64,000 nucleotides of DNA. It comes from Anaerolineae bacterium. GTDB taxonomy: Bacteria > Chloroflexota > Anaerolineae > 4572-78 > J111. A program made the position numbers and the translations under genes. The stretch lies in NCBI GenBank assembly GCA_023382535.1, contig JAHDWA010000028.1, positions 1 through 64,000 of the forward strand. Reading direction: 5' to 3'. The notes beneath the pieces are model-generated. The model was not told where the DNA came from, made no database searches, and was given only the letters and a program-made list of their open reading frames with translations. Positions 5,171 to 14,429 of this stretch are shown one piece after another. Every line of letters starts with the position of its first letter. Position 1 is the stretch's first letter.

Positions 5171-6165
5171 AGTTCGCCCTCCTGGTAAATTTGGTCAATG
5201 ACCGCTTCCAGGGGCGGGTCTTCAACGGCTAGATCAACGACGGGCAGCGTTTGCAGCAGGTGAGCGGTCAGCGCAGGCGCTTCCGACCGGCCCACCCGCA
5301 GGGTTAGGCGGCTGTTTTCCTCAGCGATGACTTCGGCGCAGGGGGGCAGGGGCAGGCCAGACATCTGCCCGGAGGAGCCGTTGCCCAGGCTGACCTGAAT
5401 CAGCTTAAAGGGGGCCAGCCGCTGCGCCAATTCATTGAGAGGGCCGTCGTAGAGCAGCGCGCCCCGATGGATCAGGATCACGCGCGGGCAGAGCGCAGCC
5501 ACGTCGGCCATGTAGTGGCTGGTCAGGATAATCGTTACACCGCTGCGGCGGTTATACTCGGCCAGAAAGCGCCGTAATTGGCCCTGCATGGTCACATCCA
5601 ACCCCAATGTCGGCTCATCGAGGAACATGACCTGGGGCCGGTGGAGCAGCCCGGCCACCAGCTCGCACTTCATCCGCTCGCCCAGCGAGAGGTTGCGCAC
5701 CGGCCGGGTCAGCAGTTCCTGCATAGCCAGCAGTTCGACCAGCTCCGCCAGCGTCTGCTTAAATTCACCGGGCGGCACATGATACATTTCACCCAGCACC
5801 CGAAACGTATCCAGCGGCGGGATGTCCCACAACATCTGGCTCTTGTTGCCCAGCACCATGCTGATGCGCCGCAGGTAATCGGCCCGGCGCTGCCAGGGGA
5901 TAAAACCCAGCACGGAGACCTCTCCCCTGGTCGGATACAACAGGCCGGAGAGTATCTTCAGGGTCGTCGTTTTACCCGCGCCGTTGGGGCCGATAAAGCC
6001 AACCATTTCTCCTGCTTCGATCATAAAGTTAACCTCTCTGACCGCCGCAACCTCGCGATAAGTGCGCTTCACCACACTTTTAAGCGAGGCGACCAGGCCG
6101 GGATCGCGCTCCGGCACGCGGTAGGTTTTGGAGAGATTGTGCACCGCAATTCGCGCTTCGGTCAT
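5167..6165 (-). CDS. ABC exporter ATP-binding protein (COG4586-like)
   Basis: The ATPase of the exporter, 332 residues from the start used here. Visible motifs are Walker A GPNGAGKT (59-66), signature LSLGERMK (159-166), Walker B VMFLDEP (179-185) and the switch histidine in TSHYMADV (about 217). The RTYREVAAVREV stretch before Walker A and the C-terminal extension after residue 235 fit the COG4586 group. The ATG at 6165 follows GGAGGT at 13 bases; an ATG at 6186 is nearly as good. Reading frames further upstream lack family similarity. It lies 254 bases after the double-MerR gene on the same strand, so that regulator may control it. Confidence 0.9.
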   Translation of the reverse strand: MTEARIAVHNLSKTYRVPERDPGLVASLKSVVKRTYREVAAVREVNFMIEAGEMVGFIGPNGAGKTTTLKILSGLLYPTRGEVSVLGFIPWQRRADYLRRISMVLGNKSQMLWDIPPLDTFRVLGEMYHVPPGEFKQTLAELVELLAMQELLTRPVRNLSLGERMKCELVAGLLHRPQVMFLDEPTLGLDVTMQGQLRRFLAEYNRRSGVTIILTSHYMADVAALCPRVILIHRGALLYDGPLNELAQRLAPFKLIQVSLGNGSSGQMSGLPLPPCAEVIAEENSRLTLRVGRSEAPALTAHLLQTLPVVDLAVEDPPLEAVIDQIYQEGEL

Positions 6166-7184: not shown

Positions 7185-7285
7185 AGGTTATCCTTTACAC
7201 AATCTTCATAAAACCTTCGTCAAAACTTTAATTGGCTCCCTTAAAATAGAATATAAAACTTCAATGAGCAAGTGAGACAGCAATT

Positions 7286-7759
7286 ATGGTGAAAGCAAAT
7301 ATCTATCTTCTTTTTGGGCCATTCCTACTGCTGGTCCTGCTGGGAGCGGCCGGCTGTACCAGTGGAGCCGCTACCGGCATGCAGGCGGCATCTCCAATAG
7401 AACTCCCCCTGGCCTCGCTGTCGGCGATGCCGGCGTTTGTGCAAGAGGCCCCTCCATCAGTCCAGGAAGCTTATCGTTTTGCTGTGGCCAACCCCGAGGT
7501 AATGCACCAAATTCCCTGCTACTGCGGCTGTGGGGCGATGGGACATCAGGATAATCTGGGCTGCTATGTCAAAGAGTTCCGGCCCGATGGCTCGATTGAG
7601 TTTGATAACCATGCCACCGGCTGCACCATCTGTGTGGATATTACCCAAGATGTCATGCGCTTAAGCCGAGAGGGACAGGATTTAAAGACCATTCGTACTT
7701 ACATTGACAAACAGTACAGTCAATACGGTCCATCTACTAACACCCCGCCTGTGGAGTAA
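7286..7759 (+). CDS. PCYCGC-motif lipoprotein
   Basis: A 157-residue exported lipoprotein with lipobox LLGAAGC (Cys at about 24). The core IPCYCGCGAMGHQDNL followed by ATGCTICVDI and a C-terminal TIRTYIDKQY matches the family named after its PCYCGC motif (Pfam PF13798, role unknown). The cysteine/histidine set suggests metal or heme-related chemistry outside the membrane. First gene of a tight four-gene operon with two CuA proteins and a polyferredoxin, so a copper-handling or assembly role is a reasonable guess but not shown. ATG at 7286 has only a weak RBS. Confidence 0.88.
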   Translation: MVKANIYLLFGPFLLLVLLGAAGCTSGAATGMQAASPIELPLASLSAMPAFVQEAPPSVQEAYRFAVANPEVMHQIPCYCGCGAMGHQDNLGCYVKEFRPDGSIEFDNHATGCTICVDITQDVMRLSREGQDLKTIRTYIDKQYSQYGPSTNTPPVE

Positions 7760-10811: not shown

Positions 10812-11444
10812 TTAAGTTAAGCGGTTGGCCTTGGCGGCCTGGCGGTCCCGCAGGAGCTGCTTGTAAAACGGCTCGCCGTAAAGCTGCTCTTCCAGCTTTT
10901 TCCAGGGTACTCTGACCAATGAGCCGGGAGCGGCCAGACCCAGAAACTCAGCCCGCTTGGCCAGGCCGGCGTAGCTCAATGTGGTCTGCGTTTCGTGCTT
11001 GAGGCGAACCAGCACTTCGGGGCTGCACTGGCGGGGGCCGATGCCCATCTGGCGGAGTTGAGCAAAGAACTCCTGCTCCGGGAAAATCAATTCGGCGGCA
11101 AAGATTTCCGCCCCAATCTCGACCGGTTCGCGCTGGTTGGAGGCATCACAGTAGGAGATAGGCTGGCCGCGATCCACCAGGTGGTGCTTTAGTTCGTGGG
11201 CCATGGTAAAAATCAGCGGCTCCGGCGGCAGGTGACGGGCCAGCATAACCGTCGGTCCCAACTCGTCGTCAAAATAAGCGCCGCGCAGGGCCTTGAGCTT
11301 GTGCGGCCACAGATCAATTTTGATACCGTAAGCCCGGTAGACCCGGCGCAGGTCCGAGCGAAGCACGCGCGGGCCAGCCAGTCCATGCTCCTGGCGGACC
11401 TGCCGGGCCAAAGCCCTCATTTCATCATAATAAAAATGGCTCAC
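10812..11444 (-). CDS. ImmA/IrrE-family metallopeptidase
   Basis: A 210-residue zinc peptidase of the DUF955/ImmA group: active site HELKH at 83-87 with probable third ligand E113 in GAEIFAAELIFP. Known relatives (ImmA, IrrE/PprI, CapP) cleave a partner XRE repressor in response to DNA damage or single-stranded DNA. The partner here is the next gene, overlapped by four bases (11441-11444), so the pair is translated together. The C-terminal region after about 150 is predicted helical and may sense the signal. The gene ends 8 bases from the convergent CuA-cytochrome gene, which is a separate unit. Confidence 0.92.
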   Translation of the reverse strand: MSHFYYDEMRALARQVRQEHGLAGPRVLRSDLRRVYRAYGIKIDLWPHKLKALRGAYFDDELGPTVMLARHLPPEPLIFTMAHELKHHLVDRGQPISYCDASNQREPVEIGAEIFAAELIFPEQEFFAQLRQMGIGPRQCSPEVLVRLKHETQTTLSYAGLAKRAEFLGLAAPGSLVRVPWKKLEEQLYGEPFYKQLLRDRQAAKANRLT

Positions 11445-11827
11445 GCGACGCTTTTCCTCTTCCGCCCGGCGCGGGGACGCTCCTGGCCCCCATACAGGCC
11501 GCGCGCCCGGCGAAACTCGGCGTAACGCCGCAGCTCTTCCAGGTCTTCCGGCTTAAGCTGCCGGGCGGCGCGCAGCAAGGCGGTCATCGGCTCATTGGCC
11601 GGGGTTTCCTCCGGCGGGAAGAACTCCAGAATAGACACTCCGAAGAAACGAGCCAGTTGATCCAGGTCTTCCAGGCTGGGCCGGTAGGTGGCCGTCTCCC
11701 AGCGCGAGATGGTATTGGTGGCCACACCCAGAGCTTTAGCCAGCGCCTCCTGGGACAGCCCTTGCCCATCCCCGTAGTTTAGGCGCAAATCGCGAATACG
11801 CTGCCCTACGTGCTCAAAAAGGTTCAT
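11441..11827 (-). CDS. XRE-family repressor partnered with ImmA-type protease
   Basis: 128 residues with a canonical helix-turn-helix at about 9-66 (LSQEALAKALGVATNTISRW) followed by a helical tail of about 50 residues that could carry the cleavage site. The ImmA-type protease gene follows with a 4-base overlap, as in ImmR-ImmA and CapH-CapP pairs. It is divergent from the HAS-barrel/HerA/nuclease operon, with a palindrome at 11843-11855 between them, so it probably represses that operon and itself. A TATAAT on the minus strand lies only two bases before the ATG. Confidence 0.92.
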   Translation of the reverse strand: MNLFEHVGQRIRDLRLNYGDGQGLSQEALAKALGVATNTISRWETATYRPSLEDLDQLARFFGVSILEFFPPEETPANEPMTALLRAARQLKPEDLEELRRYAEFRRARGLYGGQERPRAGRKRKSVA

Positions 11828-11842
11828 TGATTATAATGACTT

Positions 11843-11855
11843 TCCTGTTTCAGGA
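11843..11855. promoter_or_regulatory. Candidate XRE operator palindrome
   Basis: TCCTG-TTT-CAGGA is a perfect 13-base dyad between the divergent XRE gene and the HerA operon, 20 bases before the operon's -35 box and 16 bases from the XRE start. Size and position suit a small repressor dimer. Inference from symmetry only. Confidence 0.5.
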
Positions 11856-11874
11856 TAAGATTTTACCAATAATG

Positions 11875-11902
11875 TTGACAAGTTACTTTTTTATGCTATA
11901 TT
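11875..11902 (+). promoter_or_regulatory. Sigma70-like promoter of HerA/nuclease operon
   Basis: A consensus TTGACA (11875-11880), 16-base spacer and TATATT (11897-11902) precede the HAS-barrel gene by about 80 bases. Confidence 0.65.
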
Positions 11903-11982
11903 TACCGTAATTATTATACTCATTTAGGAAAATATTTCAACTCAAAGTGGATAATTTGTTTTAACAAAAGGAGTGTTAGTCC

Positions 11983-12300
11983 ATGAAGATCCAGATCAAG
12001 CAAATTAAGGGTGACATTGTCGAGTTGCTGTTTAATCCTAGAGAGGAAGATCTGCGCGTGGGCGAGAATTTAACCCTGCGCGAAAACGGCAGCAGCCGGG
12101 GCTTGATTGTGCAGGTGATCGAGTTTCGTACTGTTACCTACCCTTCGTTGGTGCAAGAAATGCTGCAACTGATCGCCGAAGAGGGGCCAACGCCTAATTC
12201 CGCTCCTGAACCGGACGGCTTATCCGAAAAGAGTAATCTCAAGCTGGCTATTGCCAAAATCAGAAAGGTTGTCCAATGGGCACCAATGGCCGCCGCCTAA
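11983..12300 (+). CDS. Small HAS-barrel-like protein
   Basis: 105 residues. The first 50 form a beta-rich stretch (GDIVELLFN, VGENLTLRE, GLIVQVIEF) resembling the HAS barrel, the N-terminal domain that HerA helicases use to contact their nuclease. Here it is a separate gene directly before a HerA-like ATPase that lacks the barrel, overlapping it by 25 bases. This suggests a domain split into its own subunit. ATG at 11983 has AAAGGAG at 9 bases. The family assignment is by pattern and gene order and would need a profile search. Confidence 0.75.
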   Translation: MKIQIKQIKGDIVELLFNPREEDLRVGENLTLRENGSSRGLIVQVIEFRTVTYPSLVQEMLQLIAEEGPTPNSAPEPDGLSEKSNLKLAIAKIRKVVQWAPMAAA

Positions 12301-13547
12301 GATTCGGGGATGAAGAGGGCTTGAATCGGTGGGAGCAGTGGGATGGCTGGATTCCTACCCGCGATGTAACCATCGAGCGCACCACCGATGAGGAGGTTTT
12401 TGCCAATGCTACCCGCAACCTGGGCCATCCCCTCCAGTTGGGCCATACCCTGGCCGGGCACCCTTTTTTGGTTGAAGGGCAAGACCTGGAAAAAGTCAAC
12501 GTAGTGACCGGGGTCAAGGGCAGCGGCAAAAGCCACCTTTCCAAAGTCCTCTTACTCCAGCTCATTGCCAGCGGCGCGCCGTGCGTCGTCTTTGATATTA
12601 ACAAAGAGTATATCCACCTGCCCAAGGTCGAGCTTGACCCGGAGACGGGCAAAGTGACCCAGCGGGGCATTATCCACCTGGAAGCGGGTGGCAACTTTCG
12701 CCTGGGGGTCCGGCAGTTCGGCCTGGCCCCCATGATGACCCTCTTGCAGCGTTTCGGCCTGCCGGAAGTGTCGGCCCTTTACTTTGAGAACCGGCTGGCC
12801 CGGCTGTGGGCCGAAGCCGAGGCCATCGAACGGGAGCGGGGCCGCGTGCCGTATGTCGGCCTGGAGCAAATCATGCAAATGGCCGAGAACAACGAGTTTG
12901 GCGGCGGCTCGAATGCCATGGTGGTCAATCAAGCCATTCGCTCGCGGCTGGAGGCGCTCAAAAATACCAATATTTTTGCCCGCAATCCGCAGGAGGCGGC
13001 CTCGTTGAGCGAGTCCTACCGCCGCATCCGGCAAGGCGGGGCACTGGTGATTGACATCTCAGCCCTGTCGAACCTGGCCCGCGAAGGCTTTGTCCAGGCC
13101 ATCATCGAACTGATCAAAGACTTGTGCTTGTGGGAGATTGAAAACGGCACCCACCGCTTCCCCTTCATCTTCTTTGAAGAAGCCCATCTGTACGTGTCGC
13201 GCCATAGTATTGATTACATCGTGACCCGGGCACGCCACCTGGGCATCACCAGTTTCTTTGTGACCAATATGATCCACGGGCTGGATGAGACCATCCTGCG
13301 CCAGGCCGACAACCTGTTTTTGCTGCGCGTCCCCTTTGAGGATGACGTGCGTCACGTCTCGCGTGGCGCGGCAACCGACTACGAAACGATGGCCGCCTTT
13401 GTCCGCCGGCTGCGGCAGCACCACGCCCTGGTCATCGGCAATGTGACCGCCCAATATCCTCTCATCTTCAGAGTGGACCGGCTGGCCGGGATCAATACCG
13501 CCGGGGAGACGCGCTTCTTCTTCCAACGGGGTATCCCCACAGAATAG
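12276..13547 (+). CDS. HerA-like hexameric DNA-translocating ATPase
   Basis: 423 residues of the DUF87/HerA type: Walker A GVKGSGKS (79-86), Walker B plus acidic pair FPFIFFEEAH (296-305), and the arginine-finger region VTRARHLGI (316-324), then FFVTN and ADNLFLL typical of HerA C-termini. HerA forms hexameric rings that pump DNA and activate a partner nuclease. The nuclease candidate follows ten bases later. No conjugation genes are present, so a VirB4/TraG role is unlikely. The N-terminal barrel is missing and probably supplied by the preceding gene. Confidence 0.92.
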   Translation: MGTNGRRLRFGDEEGLNRWEQWDGWIPTRDVTIERTTDEEVFANATRNLGHPLQLGHTLAGHPFLVEGQDLEKVNVVTGVKGSGKSHLSKVLLLQLIASGAPCVVFDINKEYIHLPKVELDPETGKVTQRGIIHLEAGGNFRLGVRQFGLAPMMTLLQRFGLPEVSALYFENRLARLWAEAEAIERERGRVPYVGLEQIMQMAENNEFGGGSNAMVVNQAIRSRLEALKNTNIFARNPQEAASLSESYRRIRQGGALVIDISALSNLAREGFVQAIIELIKDLCLWEIENGTHRFPFIFFEEAHLYVSRHSIDYIVTRARHLGITSFFVTNMIHGLDETILRQADNLFLLRVPFEDDVRHVSRGAATDYETMAAFVRRLRQHHALVIGNVTAQYPLIFRVDRLAGINTAGETRFFFQRGIPTE

Positions 13548-13556
13548 GAGTCACCC

Positions 13557-14429
13557 ATGAAAAAGTTGCGTGGAGCCGCCGAGTATACGGTAGAATGGCT
13601 CCAGGAAGAACATAAGAGCCAGAAAGAGTATATCAAGCCCTCGTCGCTGGCCAAGGGCTGTTTGCTGTACGTGGCCTTTGAACTGCAGGGCAAACCCAAG
13701 CCGCCCTTCGATGCCCGGGTGGGCCGGATTCTTTCGGTGGGGACCGACAGCCACCGCCGCTTGCAGCGGGCAATGAGCCGGGCCTGCTTAGCCCAGGAAG
13801 TCTTTTTTGAGATACCGGAGTACCGGATTCACGGCTTTTGTGACGGGATTCTTTACATTCCACCTGGGGTGAATGTGGACGAGGCCGCCACCGGCTTCTG
13901 GGCGCTGGAATACAAAACCAGCGCGGCCAGTGAGTTTGACAAAATCAAAGCTGCCAAAATCCCGAAGGAAGAACACGTGCGTCAGGCTCAAATTTACCTG
14001 TGGGGAATCGAGAAATACTACCAGGGAGCTGTCCCGCTCAACGGCGCTATCATTTACTACGAAAACCGCGATACTCTCGACCACCTCGCCTTCGAAGTCT
14101 ATCCCGACCCGGACATGATGGCCGACCTGCTGGCTCGAATCAAGCGCATGCTGAACTTGTTAGAAATGGACCAGTTACCGGAAGACGATGTGCTGCCGCC
14201 GGATCACTGGGCCCACGGTTACTGCGCCTATTTGGATATCTGCGAGCCGGGAAAGCAGGCCATCGAGTGGCAGAAGTCCCAACCCAAACAACTGCCTGAC
14301 AAGGTCATGGCCGATATGATCGCCAAGCGCATCGTCGCCAAAAAGGGGGCCGAAAAAATGACCTCCAAGAAGAAGCCGGTCGGCCAGCGGTCGCTGCTGG
14401 ACCTGGCTCAAGAGTTGGATTGGGAGTAA
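13557..14429 (+). CDS. RecB/Cas4-type PD-(D/E)XK nuclease
   Basis: A 290-residue nuclease with the RecB-family signature: H66 (GTDSHRRLQ), D96 (GFCDGIL), E118-x-K120 (LEYKT) and Q144 (RQAQIYLWG). C35 near the N-terminus and C223 and C229 in HGYCAYLDICE sit where Cas4 and AddB place 4Fe-4S ligands, but a fourth cysteine is not evident; H217 or H220 might replace it. A Lys-rich C-terminal tail could bind DNA. RBS GGAG lies 7 bases before the ATG. There is no cas1 or cas2 nearby, so it is not a CRISPR adaptation gene; the HerA partner points to DNA end processing or defence. Confidence 0.9.
   Translation: MKKLRGAAEYTVEWLQEEHKSQKEYIKPSSLAKGCLLYVAFELQGKPKPPFDARVGRILSVGTDSHRRLQRAMSRACLAQEVFFEIPEYRIHGFCDGILYIPPGVNVDEAATGFWALEYKTSAASEFDKIKAAKIPKEEHVRQAQIYLWGIEKYYQGAVPLNGAIIYYENRDTLDHLAFEVYPDPDMMADLLARIKRMLNLLEMDQLPEDDVLPPDHWAHGYCAYLDICEPGKQAIEWQKSQPKQLPDKVMADMIAKRIVAKKGAEKMTSKKKPVGQRSLLDLAQELDWE

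Follow-up and report, generated by a model that had tools for sequence, protein, structure and literature searches.

A HAS-HerA operon with a Cas4-like nuclease and exchangeable damage-type regulators in Chloroflexota

Introduction

HerA-type ATPases are known with several partner enzymes. The HAS barrel contacts the nuclease both in the Deinococcus NurA-HerA complex, as described in PMC9960219, and in DUF4297-HerA, as described in PMC11291478; toxicity is reported for DUF4297-HerA, and the authors of that study propose that the complex is perhaps expressed only on infection (PMC11291478). Switches that could serve such an effector are also described. CapH-CapP and the WYL regulator CapW/BrxR derepress adjacent immune operons upon the appearance of single-stranded DNA (ssDNA; PMC13373217), and the M78 protease PprI belongs to a class responsive to DNA damage or ssDNA, its ssDNA activation requiring a GAF-like ssDNA sensor (PMC10904395). 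This study analyzed a locus in a stretch of 64,000 nucleotides from an Anaerolineae bacterium (contig JAHDWA010000028.1 of assembly GCA_023382535.1; the whole stretch is termed the window) in which genes encoding an XRE-family repressor and an ImmA-type M78 metallopeptidase diverge from genes encoding a HAS-barrel protein, a HerA ATPase, and a Cas4-like nuclease. A first-pass annotation of the window had regarded the five genes as one damage-inducible system with its own protease-controlled switch.

Results

The conserved operon and its neighbouring regulators

The HAS-HerA-nuclease triad was found in eight Chloroflexota loci, namely the window, L001, L002, L003, L004, L005, L007, and L040 (L numbers denote loci and G numbers genomes), counted after the repeats L012, L013, L014, L031, L032, L044, L050, and L051 had been merged. 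A damage-type regulator directly adjoined the triad in all eight, and its kind varied. A divergent XRE-ImmA pair stood beside the triad in the window, L001, and L002, which form one lineage (the pair was located by tblastn in L001 and L002), and a different, co-directional pair of XRE and M78 genes occupied this place in L040. The L040 XRE protein gave no blastp match to the window XRE up to an E-value of 10, and the L040 M78 protein matched the window ImmA over approximately 105 residues only (E = 0.005). LexA, a regulator class that responds to DNA damage, was encoded divergently beside the triad in L007 (TIGR00498, 215.5 bits; cut-off 110.95). HAS and HerA are fused in L003, L004, and L005, and a co-directional gene for a helix-turn-helix (HTH)-WYL-WCX protein overlapped the fused gene or lay just ahead of it; these WYL genes exhibited 58-63% pairwise identity. 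As a control, none of 87 other flanking open reading frames (ORFs) from six of the eight loci (all but L001 and L003) matched the triad regulators (phmmer, E 0.001). The view of the five genes as one fixed system was not borne out, because the triad persists in four of its seven relatives (L003, L004, L005, and L007) with no XRE-ImmA pair alongside. The conserved unit is the triad, and the XRE-ImmA pair is exchangeable.

We further analyzed the intergenic regions for shared operators. In L040, the 17-bp palindrome TTGACTTGACAAGTCAA occurred exactly at positions 5897-5913, before the XRE gene, and at 7261-7277, before the HAS gene, and a third copy with two mismatches lay before the HAS gene at 7342-7358. 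The palindrome had seven matches, both strands counted, in 17,001 bases, where 0.02 would be expected. Its presence ahead of both regulator and effector genes is the strongest single piece of evidence, at the level of sequence, that the two gene sets may be wired together. In the gap between LexA and HAS of L007 (positions 7554-7596), a promoter identified by eye (TTGACA-17-TATAAT) is closely followed by AGGTGA-N8-TCACCT, a candidate LexA operator with which a perfect inverted repeat of 10 bp (GGTGAACAGA/TCTGTTCACC) overlaps.

In the window, a gap of 155 bases (11828-11982) separates the two diverging transcription units. The strong promoter that the first-pass annotation had placed there is present and kept in L001 and L002, with a spacer of 17 in L002. 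The dyad that it had also pointed out between the operons exists in the sequence but is broken in both relatives, and it was rejected as an operator because it lacks conservation. A second palindrome was largely kept in L001 and L002, with arms less symmetric in L001, and its TTTACC recurs at 11862-11867. On the basis of these three sequences from one lineage, the second palindrome is the better operator candidate.

Table 1. Genes and regulatory features of the locus (positions in the window)
Feature	Position	Strand	Length (amino acids)	Remarks
ImmA/IrrE-type M78 metallopeptidase	10812-11444	-	210	HELKH at residues 83-87; GTG start; Pfam Peptidase_M78 (PF06114), 48.8 bits
XRE-family repressor	11441-11827	-	128	Pfam HTH_3, 57.6 bits; PADLOC capH, 37 bits
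Dyad TCCTG-TTT-CAGGA	11843-11855			Broken in L001 and L002
Sigma-70-type promoter of the HAS-HerA-nuclease operon	11875-11902	+		TTGACA-16-TATATT; by eye
Candidate operator ATATTTAC-C-GTAATTAT	11898-11914			Palindrome; covers the -10 box
HAS-barrel protein	11983-12300	+	105	Detached N-terminal domain of HerA; blastp to fused relatives
HerA/DUF87 ATPase	12276-13547	+	423	Pfam DUF87, 45 bits (cut-off 23.2)
Cas4-like RecB-family PD-(D/E)XK nuclease	13557-14429	+	290	PF12705, 22.8 bits (cut-off 22)

Components of the locus

All five genes that had been called are present as ORFs, their families being backed by Pfam or, for HAS, by blastp (Table 1). The XRE stop and the ImmA start overlap by 4 bases, the HAS and HerA genes overlap by 25 bases, and 9 bases lie between the HerA end and the nuclease start. 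The 105-residue HAS-type protein exhibited no match to Pfam or any other family. The 120 HerA relatives listed among 813 matches comprised 85 proteins of at most 450 amino acids and 35 fused HAS-HerA proteins of at least 500; the HAS gene product aligned by blastp with the N-terminus of all 35. Because the small gene matches the N-terminus of the fused relatives, HerA is split in the window, as had been claimed.

The HerA P-loop residues G79, G82, G84, K85, and S86 and the motif FFEEAH (299-304) showed no variation across all 18 aligned proteins. The predicted structure of a fused HAS-HerA relative (P0117; mean predicted local distance difference test, pLDDT, 83.7) has a beta-rich N-terminus, and its best fold match in the PDB was Sulfolobus HerA, closely followed by Thermococcus HerA-NurA, DUF4297-HerA, TdpAB, and SIR2-HerA chains. 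Among the NCBIfam HerA models, repair HerA scored best for the window HerA (39 bits), and the anti-phage models NF042944 (24.4 bits; cut-off 850) and NF042943 (23.8 bits; cut-off 800) scored lower, all three lying far below their cut-offs. The PADLOC HerA profile, which has no curated cut-off, scored 51.7 bits, and mad8, a profile that also matches ABC-type ATPases, scored 51.8 bits. In the PDB sequence search, the SIR2-associated HerA 8wiv (37.4 bits; assigned to the SIR2/HerA set through a sequence common to 8wld and 8wod) ranked above Sulfolobus HerA (33.3 bits). The family scores place the window HerA clearly with neither the repair nor the anti-phage HerAs, and the evidence on its nearest relative is mixed. 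In the HerA tree, the L003/L004/L005 group clustered with fused forms, and the fused set overall was not a clade.

The nuclease residues H66, D96, E118, K120, Q143, and Y147, which make up the PD-(D/E)XK and QxxxY motifs, were kept in all 120 listed relatives, and for this reason the nuclease should be active. It scored 39 bits against the PADLOC Cas4 profile and likewise 39 bits against NCBIfam TIGR00372, below the cut-off of 65. All 120 listed relatives shared its cysteines C35, C95, C223, and C229, and 118 of them also had C77. The Cas4 iron-sulphur cysteines follow a one-plus-three pattern. The C-terminal cluster of the window nuclease consists of C223 and C229 only, and because it holds just two cysteines we label the protein Cas4-like rather than Cas4, a family whose iron-sulphur module of four cysteines is described in PMC5704561. 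The structural model of the nuclease had low confidence (pLDDT 49.5) and was used for the kind of nuclease only; its best fold matches were SSO0001 Cas4 and an Argonaute-associated Cas4. NurA was not matched by this protein in Pfam, and the HerA partner here is thus of the PF12705/Cas4-like kind and not the NurA of HerA-NurA.

Like CapH and CapP, the XRE repressor and the M78 peptidase, with its HExxH motif, adjoin the operon that they would control. The PADLOC capP profile matched ImmA (40.9 bits) over residues 9-155 of 210, leaving 55 residues, and the sole match of ImmA in the PDB sequence search up to an E-value of 10 was CapP 7t5t (E = 0.15).

Distribution of the triad

Strong matches (E < 1e-100; the centre genome left out) were counted by order, class, and phylum; in the large draws, scoring covered the 4-7 best candidates of each genome, and genomes may be incomplete. 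The orders of G001, G003, G344, and G571 yielded strong matches in 2 of 24, 0 of 45, 0 of 4, and 0 of 55 genomes, respectively, and the class of G003 in 2 of 248. In two overlapping phylum draws, of 300 and 399 genomes, the single strong match was each time G269, which carries no Cas4-like gene beside HerA. Two small groups argue against patchiness: among the four other genomes in the class of G004, an Armatimonadetes genome, two had a strong match and a third had a weak one, and one of three others in the small phylum of G005 had a strong match. The carriers in both groups had no Cas4-like gene where the loci were read. A housekeeping repair operon across Chloroflexota, the reading that would have undone the first-pass proposal had the pair also proved unlinked, was rejected because the triad is patchy; the pair is indeed unlinked from the triad in four loci.

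The HerA proteins of seven triad genomes were compared with their RecA proteins in 21 pairs, using the best RecA pair. Several of the genomes carry RecA paralogues, and the RecA of G003 is a fragment. In 18 cross-lineage pairs, HerA exhibited 75-83% identity and RecA 69-79%, HerA being higher in 16, equal in 1, and lower in 1. In the three same-order pairs (G001, G002, and G317), RecA identity was 89-97% and HerA identity 80-90%. Because HerA exceeds RecA identity across lineages and falls below it within an order, these sequence comparisons suggest that the triad spread horizontally.

HAS-HerA loci with other partners

Nine HAS-HerA loci without a Cas4-like gene (L041, L042, L043, L010, L011, L045, L046, L008, and L074; L049 and L079 were left out) were inspected mostly by eye from ORF lists, some with short flanks. 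A NurA-type gene adjoined HAS-HerA in L041, L042, L043, L010, and L011, the last below the Pfam cut-off. Damage-type regulators accompany the Cas4-like form of the operon, adjoining HAS-HerA in eight of eight such loci versus one of these nine.

Several further arrangements were observed. A RusA-type resolvase, a further nuclease partner, follows the fused HAS-HerA in L046 (4450-5046) and in the L074/L048 locus (L048:734-1285), and in L046 a 141-residue protein without a Pfam match (1757-2182) is encoded between HAS-HerA and the fused XRE-M78 regulator. In the Chloroflexota loci L042 (6351-10666) and L043 (5862-10393), NurA, HAS-HerA, and a DNA methyltransferase (identified by Pfam in L042 and by eye in L043) stand in a row, possibly a restriction-like system, and the transposition genes TniQ and TniB follow on the other strand in L043. 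An N6/N4 DNA methyltransferase also follows HAS-HerA in L008, where a second HerA-like ATPase fragment (2-901; by eye) lies upstream with one gene between. L011 carries two small winged-helix-like genes (by eye). In L074 (11341-15008; G537, which shares its class with the Armatimonadetes genome G004), the core GACCTTGAGGGGAT recurs 56 times, at a period of approximately 66 bases, in a CRISPR-like array that starts approximately 350 bases upstream of the fused HAS-HerA and the following RusA gene and reaches the contig end; the array at L048/L074 was found through tandem repeats and a script, and a CRISPR-type pattern gave no match on L048.

Defence, phage, and plasmid context

PADLOC scans gave 8 families over the 46 other window ORFs and 10 families over 39 flank ORFs of five relatives. 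No defence system was recognized among these ORFs, and the matches that were traced, partly by eye, were generic: mad3, mad8, AriA, and ATPase-Toprim corresponded to ABC-type ATPases (rescanned proteins), a MerR-like protein accounted for mad1, a radical-SAM-like protein of L005 for viperin, and the XRE-type HTH of L002:3108-6365 for RmrA/HTH_VI. The tracing did not extend to PDC-M51A, pVip, and PDC-S07 (window) or to mad2, VakA, and further members of mad3/mad8 (relatives). A defence island was rejected on this basis. Pattern-based scans of viral contigs revealed no relative of the locus, plasmid matches were weak and partial (two records for HerA and three for the nuclease), and among phage proteins none matched HerA and one distant Cas4-family protein matched the nuclease. 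Phage or plasmid cargo was rejected because of the lack of viral-contig relatives and the weak, partial plasmid matches. Enrichment in defence islands or mobile elements was thus not found in this small sample. The neighbourhoods of the window and L001 contain metabolic-looking genes, such as a cytochrome c/cupredoxin gene.

Discussion

We favour, with moderate confidence, an accessory HerA translocase that is derepressed on DNA damage and feeds a Cas4-like nuclease. The operon stands beside a switch of a class that usually senses DNA damage, and its relatives swap this switch for unrelated ones of that class; an inducible machine that degrades or repairs DNA is therefore the probable reading. 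This proposal builds on the gene order, the catalytic motifs, the HerA/HAS fold of the fused relative, the promoter, the repeated damage-class regulators, and the L040 palindrome. XRE would keep the divergent HAS-HerA-nuclease promoter off until ssDNA or another damage signal, such as that from phage attack or a broken or stalled chromosome, led the M78 protease to cleave it, and the operon would then be expressed. HerA would assemble into a hexameric ring, with six HAS barrels, supplied in trans, as its cap, and the Cas4-like nuclease would dock on this capped ring; the HAS-nuclease contacts of DUF4297-HerA and NurA-HerA suggest why a HAS barrel would stand next to a new nuclease. ATP-driven translocation would feed double-stranded DNA to the nuclease, which would resect or degrade it. 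The toxicity of DUF4297-HerA and the idea of its expression only on infection would explain a nearby switch. The protease-controlled damage switch of the first-pass annotation thus survives in part: the HerA-nuclease operon lies beside an apparent switch, as the L040 palindrome and the LexA and WYL genes elsewhere indicate, but the XRE-ImmA pair is not the constant element.

Several observations weigh against this reading. The eight loci amount to about four independent arrangements, since three belong to one XRE-ImmA lineage and three carry WYL genes. Only one of the nine distant loci (L046, with a fused XRE-M78 regulator) has a damage-type regulator adjoining it, and one ORF of the control set (L002:3108-6365) begins with an XRE-type HTH that PADLOC models detect and phmmer missed. 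The window operator is known only as a candidate palindrome. The LexA-HAS gap of L007 exhibited no common motif with the upstream regions of two recA fragments of the same genome, one having no common 9-mer and the other three such 9-mers without a pattern. ImmA has 210 residues and its CapP match ends at residue 155, which makes a full GAF-like ssDNA sensor doubtful, and the structural model of the nuclease is poor.

Two functions, degradation of invading DNA and resection of double-strand breaks, are about equally likely. An anti-phage system, to which we assign slightly less than an even chance, would keep a toxic nuclease silent until infection yields ssDNA, and DNA degradation would then stop the phage, perhaps together with the cell. 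The regulators belong to classes described beside CBASS, BREX, DISARM, and Bub operons (PMC13373217), toxicity and possible infection-only expression are reported for DUF4297-HerA (PMC11291478), and the triad is patchy and apparently mobile. However, the 46 window and 39 flank ORFs contained no recognized defence system (a few matches being untraced), the sequences evolve slowly, and one relative has LexA.

Damage-inducible resection of double-strand-break ends is a serious possibility, though short of an even one; here a HerA-NurA machine would have had its NurA replaced by a Cas4-like nuclease and would process the cell's own broken DNA rather than serve defence. The repair HerA model, with 39 bits against approximately 24 and far below its cut-off, the NurA-type genes beside HAS-HerA in five distant relatives, the LexA neighbour in L007, the high conservation of HerA, and the scans without a defence island or a viral-contig relative are consistent with this role. 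The placement of HerA is nevertheless mixed, given the SIR2-associated 8wiv as the best PDB sequence match and the PADLOC HerA score of 51.7 bits; the triad is patchy inside orders, unlike a core repair gene; and HerA identity exceeds that of RecA in 16 of 18 cross-lineage pairs and is lower in the three same-order pairs, as horizontal spread predicts.

That the genes are accidental neighbours, with XRE-ImmA controlling itself or something else and merely abutting the triad, is improbable: although the triad of L003, L004, L005, and L007 has no such pair next to it, the common divergent promoter region is kept in L001 and L002, a different XRE-ImmA pair shares one palindrome with the triad in L040, and LexA and WYL genes take the same place elsewhere. 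Similarly improbable is a mobile-element function, in which the triad would process or transfer DNA on behalf of an integrated element whose induction is under ImmR-ImmA-type control; this would fit the ImmR-like module described for a conjugative element (PMC10233336) and the DNA-moving capacity of HerA/FtsK ATPases but agrees poorly with the lack of viral-contig relatives, the weak and partial plasmid matches, and the metabolic-looking neighbours of the window and L001.

Beyond the damage-derepressed translocase, we tentatively put forward a more specific picture that, taken as a whole, is rather doubtful: a mobile HerA and Cas4-like system that swaps damage switches (two unrelated XRE-ImmA pairs, LexA, and WYL), acts as a damage-triggered anti-phage degrader, and arose from HerA-NurA by nuclease exchange. 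If the proposal is true, the Cas4-like nuclease joins the list of HerA partners and one effector operon recruits several non-homologous damage sensors. Should XRE-ImmA, LexA, and WYL each drive this one effector, DNA damage itself would be the signal under selection, and the loci would constitute a clean natural experiment. The locus also bears on the question of a repair or defence role for bacterial HerA-nuclease operons. In the literature searched, whose coverage was incomplete, no pairing of HerA and a Cas4-like nuclease under switches of this kind was found. According to a survey of Cas4, many Chloroflexi carry solo-Cas4, and Cas4-like proteins occur as partners of UvrD and COG1205 helicases; its main text does not mention HerA (PMC5704561), and that of PMC12839542 mentions neither Cas4 nor ImmA.

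TdpAB resembles the present system in its HerA-type ring with a partner and in its fold match; its partner is different and linked to phosphorothioate, and no phosphorothioate modification genes were noticed beside the window locus. The window nuclease resembles Cas4, solo-Cas4, and PF12705 Cas4-like nucleases in carrying all the RecB-type motifs and in its best fold matches, which come from a poor model, but it misses the TIGR00372 cut-off, and its C223 and C229 plus C35 appear to depart from the one-plus-three cysteines of Cas4. The HerA/FtsK capture systems, such as DndFGH, likewise couple a translocase to nucleases in proposed anti-invader operons, whereas their partners are described as DndFG, Orc/CDC6, PglZ, and DUF4007 (PMC10853773, PMC12839542).

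CapH-CapP, ImmR-ImmA, and DdrO-PprI share with the window the XRE and M78 genes back to back with an operon that they apparently control. The similarity here is low (capH and capP, 37-41 bits), the C-terminal sensor domain appears short or absent, and the effector is a HerA-nuclease. DUF4297-HerA and SIR2-HerA (Nezha) also join a HerA ring to an effector enzyme and gave comparable fold matches; DUF4297 is likewise of the PD-(D/E)XK type (PMC11291478), and a SIR2-associated HerA was the best PDB sequence match. The effector family of the window differs from both, its HerA scores below 25 bits with the NCBIfam anti-phage HerA models, and DUF4297-HerA is described in PMC11291478 as a two-component system, without a regulator pair. 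HerA-NurA of archaea and Deinococcus has the same combination of HAS barrel, HerA ATPase, and nuclease, is among the best fold matches, and has a parallel in the NurA-type genes that adjoin distant relatives of the window HerA. In contrast to HerA-NurA, the window operon has a Cas4-like, RecB-type nuclease, a HAS barrel encoded by a separate gene, an adjacent damage-type regulator, and a patchy distribution.

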